From Triparma columacea (taxonomy: Eukaryota > Sar > Bolidophyceae > Parmales > Triparmaceae), in contig BRYA01000175.1 in NCBI GenBank assembly GCA_030267965.1, positions 1-64,000 on the forward strand: a stretch of DNA of 64,000 bases, given 5' to 3'. The position numbers were made by a program, and so were the translations under genes. The notes under the pieces were generated by a model. The model worked only from the letters and a program-made list of their open reading frames with translations, did no database searches and had not been told where the DNA came from. Position 1 is the stretch's first letter, and each line of letters opens with the position of its first letter. Shown one piece after another: positions 56,401-60,516 of this stretch.

Positions 56401-58740
56401 TCAAGGGAGTCCCAAGCAATCCCTACGCTCAATCGAGTAAGGCAACCGCGAGAATCAACCCTTACGCGAAATCAGCTAAGACTCCTAAACCGACAGCCGC
56501 GAAGCATCAGCCTGCTACCGTGGCTGTTATAAGGCAGAAGAATGACGACGGCGGAGTGAAGGTGTGGGCTCCCATGACAGAACCAAGATCAAAGTCGGTG
56601 ACATATTCCATGCCTCCCCTTCACTCTCCAACTCGTGACAATGGCGCCGCCGCCCTAAGTTTTTTCAAGCGCGCTCCGCTCAGGCCGCCCCCTAACACCA
56701 CAGGGGCATCCTTTGCGATTCGACGAGACGAGGCTGACAAGGTCATTAGCATGAGAGAGGCAGCTTCTCGGCCCGCTTTGGACGTCAAGCTTCAGTCAAA
56801 CTCTTGGGAAATAGTCAATGCGATTTCTCTCTACAACGCCAACTACGTCCGCTTCGATACTTATGGCTTTCCTTCGTTCTTCAGGTCCAAGGCCTCTACC
56901 AAACTGATGCTCAAGGCGTCGATCGGCGAGGAGGACATGTACGACATTCTCTGTTCAGACCCGACCTTAAGAACGGAACTTCTTACGCTGAGGTTTGTCT
57001 CAAATCACTTCGCCCAAATAGTGTGGAAGTTTGCAGGTATGGAGAGAAAGATTCCTTTGGCAAGGGGCAATTACCTCTGCTCGGAACGCGTGCTCGAAGG
57101 ACTGCGAGAGAGGTTCACCAGGGAGATTCTGAAGCACCAGAGACCCCCAGTGAGGAAAATTTTGAATAGAGATGCGGCAAGCACAAGGATGTGAGTTTGG
57201 GTCCTTCTGTCTCATTGTTTAACATGGGCTATTTGCCGTAGCTAACTCGTCATCCATCGCTTCACTCAACAGGCTGGTGCTCTGCATAGCGTCGATTCGC
57301 TGCCCTAAGACAGCAGACCAGACTTCGCCCCCCGTCTCTCTGGAGCTCACTGATGGTTGGTACAGAATCCATGCCGTGCTTGACCCGCGCTTGAGCGACA
57401 TTGCAAGGGCAGGCCATCTAATTGTGGGGGAAAAGCTAGCTGTGTGCAACGCGGTCATGTCTGGAGCTGAAGATGGTATTGACCCAATGGATAGCAACTA
57501 CTCTTCATCCCCTCTAAATCCTTCTGTCACTCTTCAGCTCAACTACAACTCGACGAGGAGGGCTTCGTGGGACGCCAAGCTCGGTTGGAGTAGGGGTTTT
57601 GCGGGGACAGGGTTGATGAGAGTTGCTCTTCAAGACGCTGAGGCCGGAGGTGGCGTCATCCCCATGGTCGACGTGGTCGTGAGCAGGAAGTTTCCTAAAA
57701 TGTTCGCCCAGACTGTAACCAAGGGGGACGGAACGAGCACGACAACATTCCTCACCGAAGCCGCCGAGGAGAACGCGAAGAGGTTCTGGGACAGCTCGAG
57801 AGAGAAGAGAACTGAGAAGATCGTCGAGAGCATCATGAACTCCGACGTCAAGGAGTTTGAGGAGGAGGTGGACAAGCAGGCCCCGGAGGAGTGGAATGGC
57901 ATATATAGGAGCAACGACGCGGGGGAAGTCTACGCTGGTCTCAGTCATGATCGCCAAGCGGCAATAGACAGGTGGAAGGAGACTCGCTCCCAATTAATCC
58001 AGAATTGGCAACAGAGGGAAATAAAGGACAGGATGCAGGAGGATGGGCTAAGCGAGGAGAGGAAGAGCACCCCATACGTTGACTTGCGTGTTCTTGGGCT
58101 TGGCAGGAAGGGCGAAGGGGGGGAGGCGACTCTGAGGATATGGGGCATTAGGGACGACACGTACACGTTGCTAAGGGAGGGGGGGGCGATGAGGTTGAAG
58201 GACGTAGGCGTCAAGTCGACGAGGAACGGGGGGGCGATCCAACTGTTTGCCAATATGAAGAACTTCCAAATGAAGTGGTTTGGAGAGCAGCAGGGGCTGC
58301 GGCTCGAATCTTGCGGCTATAAGGAGAGGAAGGCTTTGAGGGTGGAGGAAGTCATGGACATGATTGCAAGGGGTGAGGCTGATGGAGAGGATAAGAAGTT
58401 GGTTGACTTTGTTGGAAGGGTAAAGAGCGTTATCCACAACAGCGGAAGGAGACAGAGCGCCGTTTATTTCGTTGACGACAGTGGCAATGTCGTGATACTG
58501 CGGAGGTTCTTTGACTACGACGACGACAATAGCTGGAAAAAGTGGAAGTTGCTTTCGAGTGCCGTCGGGAAAGTCTGGAAGGTGACGAATTTGATCTTGG
58601 AGGGGGTCGAAGAGTATGAGGGCTGTGGAGTTTTGGTTTGGAAGGACGTGAGCGAAGCCTCGGAGGAGGGGGGGGGGAATAAGAGGTTGGCTGGGGAGGT
58701 TGGCGAGGGGGAAGGGGGGAAGAAAAGGGCCAGATTGTAG
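53496..58740 (+). CDS. BRCA2: BRCA2 homologue with RanBP2-type zinc finger and Glu-Lys tract
   Basis: Three exons (53496-54566, 54636-57190, 57273-58740) in phase, 1697 residues. Order: RanBP2-type finger about 36-57 (WNCQLC...CSTC); a Glu/Lys tract about 75-160; Ser/Pro linker; six BRC repeats about 500-790 (TGFTTAGK, TGFSTAGARRDITVDED twice, TGFSTAGGGRSITVDE, TGFATAGRGGSISVDE, TGFTTGSK), the RAD51-binding FxTA motif. The DNA-binding region follows: helical domain (SNSWEIVNAISLYNANYVRF, VWKFAGMERK), OB folds (DGWYRIHAVLD, VALQDAEAGGGVIPMVDVVV) with a tower-like coiled insert, and a last OB fold (VDFVGRVKSV). The basic C-terminus (KKRARL) may be an NLS. It loads RAD51 on ssDNA in homologous recombination. 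Confidence 0.93.
53717..53966 (+). repeat. GAGAAG hexanucleotide tract in BRCA2 exon 1
   Basis: About 250 bp of almost pure purine on the + strand, mostly (GAGAAG)n interrupted by GAGGAG near the 5' end. It encodes alternating Glu-Lys. The reverse strand gives a long Ser-Phe or Leu-only ORF that is a shadow. Confidence 0.95.
55263..55580 (+). repeat. Tandem 159-bp duplication of a BRC repeat
   Basis: Positions 55263-55421 and 55422-55580 are near-identical (three differences seen), in frame, 53 residues each. Each contains one complete BRC motif plus its linker (VTKAQIAPPPAKHIG). Confidence 0.95.
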
Positions 58741-58803
58741 GTGTGTAAAATGAAAGTGTTTGTTGTGGGAAACGTTTGTTCAGGTTAACACGGTAGTTGC
58801 ATT

Positions 58804-58848
58804 TGTCGGGGTCAATGAGCGTAACTCTTTTTTGTCTTGACCCGTCAT
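58804..58848 (-). promoter_or_regulatory. SECIS-like hairpin in 3' UTR (candidate)
   Basis: On the minus strand, 32 nt after the stop of the thioredoxin-like gene. It reads ATGA (58848-58845), then stem GGGTCAA (58843-58837), GAC, an unpaired A6 run (58833-58828), a mini-stem GAG/CTC around TTACG, and the returning stem TTGACCC (58815-58809), followed by CGA. Eleven nucleotides separate ATGA from the A run, in the range of eukaryotic SECIS elements, and the mini-stem resembles form 2. Against it: helix II is short, with a C-C mismatch beside the quartet. Confidence 0.35.
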
Positions 58849-58879
58849 TCAATGCCGCTCGGTCCGTGGCCCCCAAATT

Positions 58880-60311
58880 TCACTTTCTCTTCGCATTTCG
58901 TCTTTTCGATAACTGCTGTTGCGACCTTACCGCGCACTCCCAGAGAATGCCCTTGCTTGGATTCTTTACGGAGCTGGCCCAAGGTCCATGCAGTACCCTC
59001 CCGAATTCCCCGTCCCACCACATTAAAAGTTTCCCGCTCCTTACATCAACTATCATTCTGTTGGGCACATATCTCACTTTGAGGAGCTTTATTATCTTCG
59101 TATCAATCCACGTGTGGTGATTGATGTTCGGCCATCGGTCTCTGGCCCTCTCTACACACTCGTCACTGGTCTCGTCGCAGTTCACAGCAATGAAAGTGGC
59201 ACTAAATTTGTACTTTGAGTAATTCTCTGCTGCCCCCCCGTTCTGCCAAGACCGCGACGAGCAAAGGGAATGAGTTGCGTAAGACAGTTTAGGATTGCAC
59301 ACGTCGGTTCATTGAGGCGTTCCATTGACGAACGGATAATCGCGATGTTCCTTTATTTCTGATCTGTTCTCACCTCCCTCAACCTCACCGACGCACGGTC
59401 GAGCTCGTTCAAGCTCTGACCCCGCCGGACTGGACATCAAGGATCTATCGCAATTACAGGCTCAACAGTCCGGGTTTTTGAAACGTAAAACTCAATCACG
59501 GCCAGCTGTGTGGTGGAGCAGAGGTCGAAGACCGAAGTGTAGGACTTGGTGTCGGTATTGAGAACTGGGATATCAGGAAGGATTGAACCAATGTCCAGAC
59601 CCTTGAAGGTTTTTGCAGATGAGAAGGGATTCTTCCGAAATGTTGTGGGGCCGAGCATTTTCTTCTGATTGAGCATTGAATAGAGAGATTCACCGGCGGA
59701 TTTCATTAGATTGGAGGTTGTCCGTTGAGCGACCTCTTTCGCTCGTTTGACGAATACGGATTGCATTGTCTGCAGGGGGGGGGGGAGAGGGGGGGGGTGC
59801 GGAAGTGGTGGATGAGTACAGCGGATTTGTTGAGGGCGACTCTCTCCTGGCTGACCTTGTTTCTCCGATTTTGAGTTTTTGAAAGCGACCTATTGGATGA
59901 AGAGGTCTTTTTCAGATCCTGAATCTTGCCCTCCCAATCATTAGGGTGGGAAGTTGCTGTCGTTGAACCCTCCTTGGCTATCACTTGGGCTTGAACAGGA
60001 TTGTCGTTACCCTTCGAGGAGGAGGTGGGGAGGGGAAAAGGGTTGGAGTCCTGCTCCTCTGAAGAGATAAAATGGTCGCATGAAAGAAAAATCGCGTTGG
60101 GAAGCTTGCCGGTGCCAGACTTGGGTGGTGGTGGGAGGTCTTGGGAAAAGGAGGAAGGAATTATTTCAAGTTGCTCGGCTTGGCCAAGATTTTTGTTGGG
60201 GGCTGTTAAGGCCTTTCCGGTTGGAGATCCGAATGGTTTCTTAGGGGAAACGAAGTTGATAGTAGATGGCGGGGCAAAGATTAGCGTTTTAAGCCTTCCA
60301 GAACCCTCCAT
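58880..60311 (-). CDS. Thioredoxin-fold protein with in-frame TGA, candidate selenoprotein
   Basis: Exons 59856-60311, 59374-59769, 58880-59242 join in phase; 404 residues if TGA 59439-59437 is read through. Exon 1 is a Ser/Pro/Lys-rich N-terminus. Exon 2 has a thioredoxin/peroxiredoxin-like entry (GLDIGSILPDIPVLN, LAVIEFYVS), then DP-TGA-CPVRR and a helix SLNELDRASVRLRE that stays in the same frame up to a GTGAG donor. Exon 3 resumes in phase with KFSATFIAVNCDETSDE, INHHTWIDTKII and VRYVPNRMIVDVRSGKLL, a tryparedoxin-like ending. The TGA sits at the N-end of the first helix, where this fold carries its redox Cys. Without recoding the protein would stop at 261 residues and lose half the fold. 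Donor of exon 1 (GTCAGC) is weak but the phase fits. Alternatives: a 42-66-nt intron around the TGA, or a null allele. Confidence 0.6.
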
Positions 60312-60516
60312 GATGATGAGGAGTTTGGCAGTTTGTTAAGTTTGTCAAGTTTTTTTTGCAGCAAATGCTCTAATTTTGAAAATGAGCCCAGATGCTCCTC
60401 CAGACATCGCGTGAGTGTCCCTGGGATAAGATTAAAGTCTACCCGAAAGGAAATACTACGAGGGGCAATGACGCGGAAACACTAGGTGAAATCGTTTGTT
60501 ATAACAACATTATGGA

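Follow-up and report, generated by a model that had tools for sequence, protein, structure and literature searches.

A candidate selenoprotein of a probable new family in the bolidophyte Triparma columacea, with predicted selenocysteine close to the catalytic site in a thioredoxin-like domain

A minus-strand gene in a 64,000-nucleotide stretch of Triparma columacea DNA (the window; taken from a 37.85-Mb genome in 789 contigs) very probably encodes a selenoprotein, predicted to be about 404 residues long, with selenocysteine (Sec) specified by an in-frame TGA. As judged from sequence comparison, the most likely interpretation is that it represents a new selenoprotein family of Bolidophyceae, in which Sec would lie near the place of the thioredoxin catalytic Cys. 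The family seems to be confined to Bolidophyceae/Parmales, as far as one named relative can indicate. A sequence-only reading had put the gene forward as a new selenoprotein candidate, and this is supported by a break of the relatives at the TGA column, by the presence of Sec machinery in the genome and by evidence from one relative, P0004, that the stop codon is retained in mRNA. The features of the gene are listed in Table 1.

Table 1. Features of the candidate selenoprotein gene in the window, and loci of the other likely selenoprotein genes of the genome
Feature	Position or locus	Strand	Content or basis
Exon 1	59856..60311	-	ATG at 60311; open frame; N-terminal region
Exon 2	59374..59769	-	Conserved linker, strand LAVIEFYV, loop SKTRTVEPVIAIDP, TGA, then CPVRRGQSLNELDRASVRLRE
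In-frame TGA, proposed selenocysteine codon, residue 263	59437..59439	-	5/5 upstream relatives end here
Intron 2, GTGAG...GCAG, phase 0	59243..59373	-	RE/NG junction present in relative P0004
Exon 3, rest of thioredoxin-like domain (ATFIAVNCDE, RYVPNRMIVDV, MWWDGEFGRVLHGPWASSVKNPS)	58880..59242	-	Thioredoxin_8, E 3e-5
SECIS element (candidate)	58799..58855	-	Sequence and predicted fold
Native selenoprotein loci	L010, L009, L024, L025, L026, L030, L038		GPx, SelT, three SelU-like UxxC, SelM, TrxR

The three exons join in phase into a frame of 404 codons, which is interrupted only once, by the TGA at codon 263, and which ends with a second TGA at 58882-58880. The ATG is the presumed start codon of exon 1, the exon 1/2 junction is likewise a presumed one (GTCAGC donor, TGCAG acceptor), and the N-terminal region encoded by exon 1 is probably disordered. 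Beyond the in-frame TGA the frame stays open for 21 codons up to a GTGAG donor and restarts in phase at 59242, in agreement with the sequence-only reading, and this second intron is real because P0004 has the same junction without an intron. Searches of the T. columacea genome with the DNA and the protein of the gene gave no match beyond the gene itself. On the opposite strand, a convergent open frame (window 57223-58740, plus strand, 505 codons from stop to stop) ends 139 bases from the stop of the candidate gene, so that the 3' UTR of the latter would have room for little beyond the SECIS element, unless the two transcripts overlap.

Protein-database searches, restricted to relatives sharing short words and lying within given length ranges, yielded 13 relatives, all known as proteins only, the codon at the column of interest being read as DNA in the window alone. 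The five relatives of the upstream half (P0002, P0003, P0011, P0012 and P0013) each stop precisely at the TGA column and the eight relatives of the downstream half (P0001 and P0004-P0010) all begin past it; no relative crossing the column was found among the 13 in these restricted searches. The upstream relatives share the ending EFYVSKTR[ST]AEPVIAI[DN]P, placed exactly where the window has its TGA, and are 59-86% identical to the window over their last 56 residues. Exon 2 is kept in these five before the TGA and in P0004 and P0005 after it, and coding sequence is thus conserved on both sides of a stop codon whose identity as a codon comes from the window. It had been proposed earlier to look for Cys or Sec in homologues at this column: all five upstream relatives break there, none of the 13 relatives has a Cys at the column, and the usual Cys/Sec pairing is therefore missing.

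The closest named relative among those found is the Triparma laevis hypothetical protein TL16_g03364 (P0002), which is 50% identical in the upstream half and has the same end column; in contrast to the window gene, it is on record as a protein of 269 aa that lacks the thioredoxin-like half. According to the text of the Parmales genome paper, the published annotation of T. laevis made use of RNA-seq hints (PMC10328945). If TL16_g03364 comes from that annotation, as we presume, a gene model built with RNA-seq hints also ends at the TGA column.

The most informative downstream relative is P0004, which is 98% identical to the window gene, has no intron 2 and begins at codon 9 after the TGA, with TTG, the first TTG, GTG or ATG codon that follows. 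As P0004 lacks the intron, its sequence probably derives from RNA, and its beginning at the earliest codon that could serve as a start makes it very probable that this RNA has a stop ahead of it; a spliced-out TGA would have left P0004 with an open frame further upstream. It is thus strongly indicated, by comparison of sequences, that the mRNA retains the UGA. P0005 (65% identical) begins VRNGQSLNELDR, which lines up with the window starting at the third codon past the TGA; the motif VRxGQSLNELDR right after the TGA is kept in it, which argues that the residues following the TGA are coding. Both P0006 and P0007, which are MMETSP transcript ORFs labelled complete, begin past the TGA column. An upstream half (P0003) and a downstream half (P0007) come from JGI contigs of equal length, 1482 bp, and probably stem from one and the same contig. 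P0004 and P0005, with starts no more than nine codons past the TGA, inform on the stop, as do P0006 and P0007; the relatives that do not are P0001 and P0009 (non-aligning first residues, probably intron), P0008 (beginning shortly before the second strand) and P0010 (beginning inside exon 3). The downstream part has 40 invariant columns across nine sequences. Upstream halves matching the group of P0005, P0008, P0009 and P0010 were not found in the restricted protein-database searches, and a search of viral contigs gave no relative of the candidate gene.

The genome encodes the machinery for Sec, which had been named earlier as a point to be checked. Two tRNA-Sec genes (anticodon UCA; 64.5 and 61.7 bits vs. 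a cut-off of 47; L001 and L002) lie on contigs C54 and C402 and differ by one base over the 86-base gene; ARAGORN reports neither of them. SecS is encoded on contig C31, in pieces that span profile positions 2-444 of 444 and score over the cut-off, and eEFSec on C402, where the top PDB hit (E 4.9e-29) is to eEFSec, with SelB and EF-Tu ranking behind it. Matches to selB on contigs C500 and C489 had first been taken as eEFSec and were rejected on reading; we take them to be EF-Tu-like and eEF1A-like proteins. A selenophosphate synthetase on C366 (L035-L036) looks to be of the Cys type (MRCGGCGAKV) and gave no SECIS control; it follows an in-frame stretch resembling a FAD/NADH oxidoreductase domain and is possibly part of a fusion.

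Seven other genes have a TGA at the expected Sec site and are likely to encode selenoproteins, judging from their motifs: GPx (NVASRUGAT), SelT (IKFCASUGMKR), SelM (IETCTGUK), TrxR (GCUG) and three SelU-like genes (RRSGUGNCR, VVRRPGUQICR and LLRSFGUPFCQ). Their names come from family models, whose curated cut-off is not reached by the SelM match or by any single TrxR piece, and lean also on motifs that we take to mark these families. The native SECIS elements have a signature of AUGA followed by C, a helix II that starts one base later, and either C or U immediately ahead of the 3' GA. Those of the SelM, TrxR, L024 and L026 genes were first spotted by eye, and TrxR, which was read after the signature had been noted, shows AUGAC...(C/U)GA as well.

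The hairpin behind the candidate gene is as the sequence-only reading had described it, with AUGA from nucleotide 32 after the stop (58848), then 11 nt, a run of six A and a mini-stem; it also has a helix I (GCAUU/AAUGC) and a 3' CGA that completes the core, both absent from the earlier description. Its layout, GCATT-GA-ATGAC-GGGTCAA-(GACAAAAAAGAGTTACGCTCA)-TTGACCC-CGA-CA-AATGC, is the same as that of the native elements, and comprises helix I GCATT/AATGC, the core ATGAC (58848-58844) with CGA, helix II GGGTCAA/TTGACCC, and an apex with A6 (58833-58828) and the mini-stem GAGT/GCTC. The short helix II, once listed as a weak point, is less of a concern beside the native elements of SelM, which is weak (helix II of 5 pairs, weak helix I), and of the SelU-like gene at L025 (6 pairs). 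By sequence and predicted fold, the candidate hairpin matches the seven native elements in core and layout.

How often such a hairpin is met by chance depends on the descriptor. The overall folding energy of the region is no better than that of shuffles (z -0.47). With a loose SECIS descriptor, 24 of 254 pieces, each 540 bases long, score as high as the candidate (a background of about 9%), as do 0 of 400 (500 nt) and 1 of 1000 (150 nt) shuffles of the candidate's own region; the loose scan was set aside as non-discriminating because of the high background among the pieces. A strict descriptor was made of the core signature of the genome's own SECIS elements, with at least 6 pairs and helix I demanded; the stricter descriptors were composed after inspection of both the native elements and the candidate. 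The candidate is its sole match in the 128 kb of the window (both strands), with no match in 141 kb of other loci and one in 1,920 kb of shuffles, none as good. When any base was allowed after AUGA and before GA, the window gave one extra, weaker match, at 58255. The strict descriptor detects four of the seven native elements and misses those of GPx, SelM and TrxR.

A constrained-fold descriptor, composed after TrxR had been seen, matches six of the seven native 3' regions at -9.1 to -43.2 kcal/mol, with the candidate mid-range at -17.6; it misses the SelU-like gene of L024, whose element the strict descriptor detects. Outside known elements, the window has four matches at -15 or lower, of which three beat the candidate, and another two, which also beat it, come from 202 kb of other loci that overlap in part. 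One of the better-scoring matches is in locus L027; two further matches, in L039 and L040, coincide in position with the TrxR element. Six unexplained matches in 330 kb correspond to about 0.005 expected per 300 nt. Rfam gave chance matches only over 58600-60400, where SECIS_1 did not find the candidate hairpin, and SECIS_1 had no match in a search of the genome either (133 of 500 first-look candidates scored); with no match in that search, the model cannot judge the candidate.

Exon 3 matches the Pfam family PF13905, Thioredoxin_8, over profile positions 27-93 (score 24.7, below the gathering score of 27), and the same family is matched by four of the eight downstream relatives at E <= 0.01 (best 1e-6; precomputed for P0007). 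Positions 1-26 of the profile, which presumably hold the CxxC part, are unmatched by the window gene. No CxxC is found in the candidate between the strand and the first helix, where it has U-C-P-V instead. The order of elements is strand AVIEFYV, loop SKTRxxEPVIAI[DN]P, U263, helix SLNELDRA, strand ATFIAV and RYVPNRMIVDV, with a VP that we take to be cis-Pro-like. U263 would thus stand at the start of the first helix, within about one residue of the first Cys of the Thioredoxin_8 CxxC, if that Cys is placed, counting from the helix, by the consensus that we assume. The non-standard spacing between strand and TGA, another weak point named earlier, loses weight with the conservation of the long loop in all five upstream relatives. 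An AlphaFold prediction for the downstream half has low confidence (pLDDT 52), and its best but insignificant matches are mostly thioredoxin folds. A PDB sequence search with the downstream alignment gave four matches, at E 0.21 or worse, and an NCBIfam search one match at chance level.

Other explanations for the in-frame TGA have to be considered. Conserved coding sequence on both sides of a conserved break would look alike if a near-cognate tRNA let ribosomes read through the UGA without selenium, so that a longer isoform lacking Sec is made. We regard this as very unlikely, in view of the SECIS-like element of the genome's own type after the final stop, the Sec machinery of the genome and the location of the column, apparently near the catalytic position of the thioredoxin-like domain; the context TGA TGT also differs from UGA-CUA, a stop-codon read-through motif. 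Even less likely is the removal of the TGA in phase by a short intron of 42, 51 or 69 nt ending at GGTCAG/AGCTTG, which would leave an ordinary Sec-free protein. Three in-phase GT donors (GTTTCA, GTTGAG and GTAATT) do exist for this acceptor, but VRxGQ, which would be intronic, is conserved as protein in P0005, and VIAI[DN]P, intronic with all three donors, is the conserved end of every upstream relative. Moreover, P0004, although free of intron 2, still begins at the first start codon after the TGA, and the restricted protein-database searches gave no continuous protein.

The least probable of these explanations is that the gene truly ends at the conserved stop and makes the short protein, the domain that follows being either a cistron of its own or a remnant in decay. 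All the gene predictions from which the five upstream relatives come, T. laevis TL16_g03364 included, do stop there; nevertheless, the part that follows is in the same frame and strongly conserved, as its invariant columns attest, and the strand before the TGA appears to belong to the same fold. There is also no ATG in exon 2 once the TGA is passed: among the 21 codons that are left, the first start-like one is the TTG at codon 9.

If the gene is a selenoprotein gene, as we favor, the SECIS element would act via its binding protein and eEFSec to make ribosomes insert Sec at UGA 263, and failure of Sec insertion would yield a truncated product of 262 residues. Since Sec is followed at once by Cys (U-C-P-V-R), the protein probably carries out redox chemistry. 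Sec may form a selenenylsulfide with Cys264, or may be partnered by the Cys of FDxCS, of xCD or of the C-terminal xEC. We propose that the protein is a thiol oxidoreductase dependent on Sec, in which Cys264 or a different conserved Cys would act as the resolving residue.

The survey "The algal selenoproteomes" reports 42 selenoprotein families in 137 algae (PMC7539508). As presented in the text of that survey, its thioredoxin-fold selenoproteins (PDI_a-e, TlpA, AhpC_a/b, SymSEP and SELENOU) share with the candidate a Sec that lies mostly in thioredoxin-like domains, an occurrence in unicellular algae and the use of SECIS. The candidate differs from them, some of the named families being compared by printed motif only, in its motif DPUCPVR after the long loop SKTRxxEPVIAI, in having neither CxxC nor UxxC, and in that no Cys form was found. 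Bolidophytes are not mentioned in the main text of PMC7539508, that of PMC10328945, the Parmales genome paper, makes no mention of selenium proteins, and we found no paper in the open literature linking Triparma, bolidophytes or Bolidomonas with selenoproteins or selenocysteine. We rate the candidate as a probable new family among selenoproteins; an unrecognised match to one of the 42 families is possible.

New selenoprotein families are rare, and methods that need Cys/Sec pairs would miss one for which no Cys relative is found. Parmales are the sister group of diatoms; their public gene predictions split the candidate gene into two pieces, and the Rfam SECIS model finds no SECIS in a genome with at least seven other selenoprotein genes. 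A wider interpretation, on which we are evenly divided, is that the family is found in Bolidophyceae only and lacks any Cys form, the CxxC of thioredoxin being replaced by a long conserved loop that ends in a vicinal Sec-Cys pair with strictly selenium-dependent chemistry, and that the SECIS elements of this lineage, of unusually small size and with an invariant AUGAC...(C/U)GA core, escape standard models, leaving its selenoproteome largely unannotated. The gene offers a testable candidate for a Sec enzyme whose Sec-Cys site is unusual, in a lineage of marine plankton that uses selenium.
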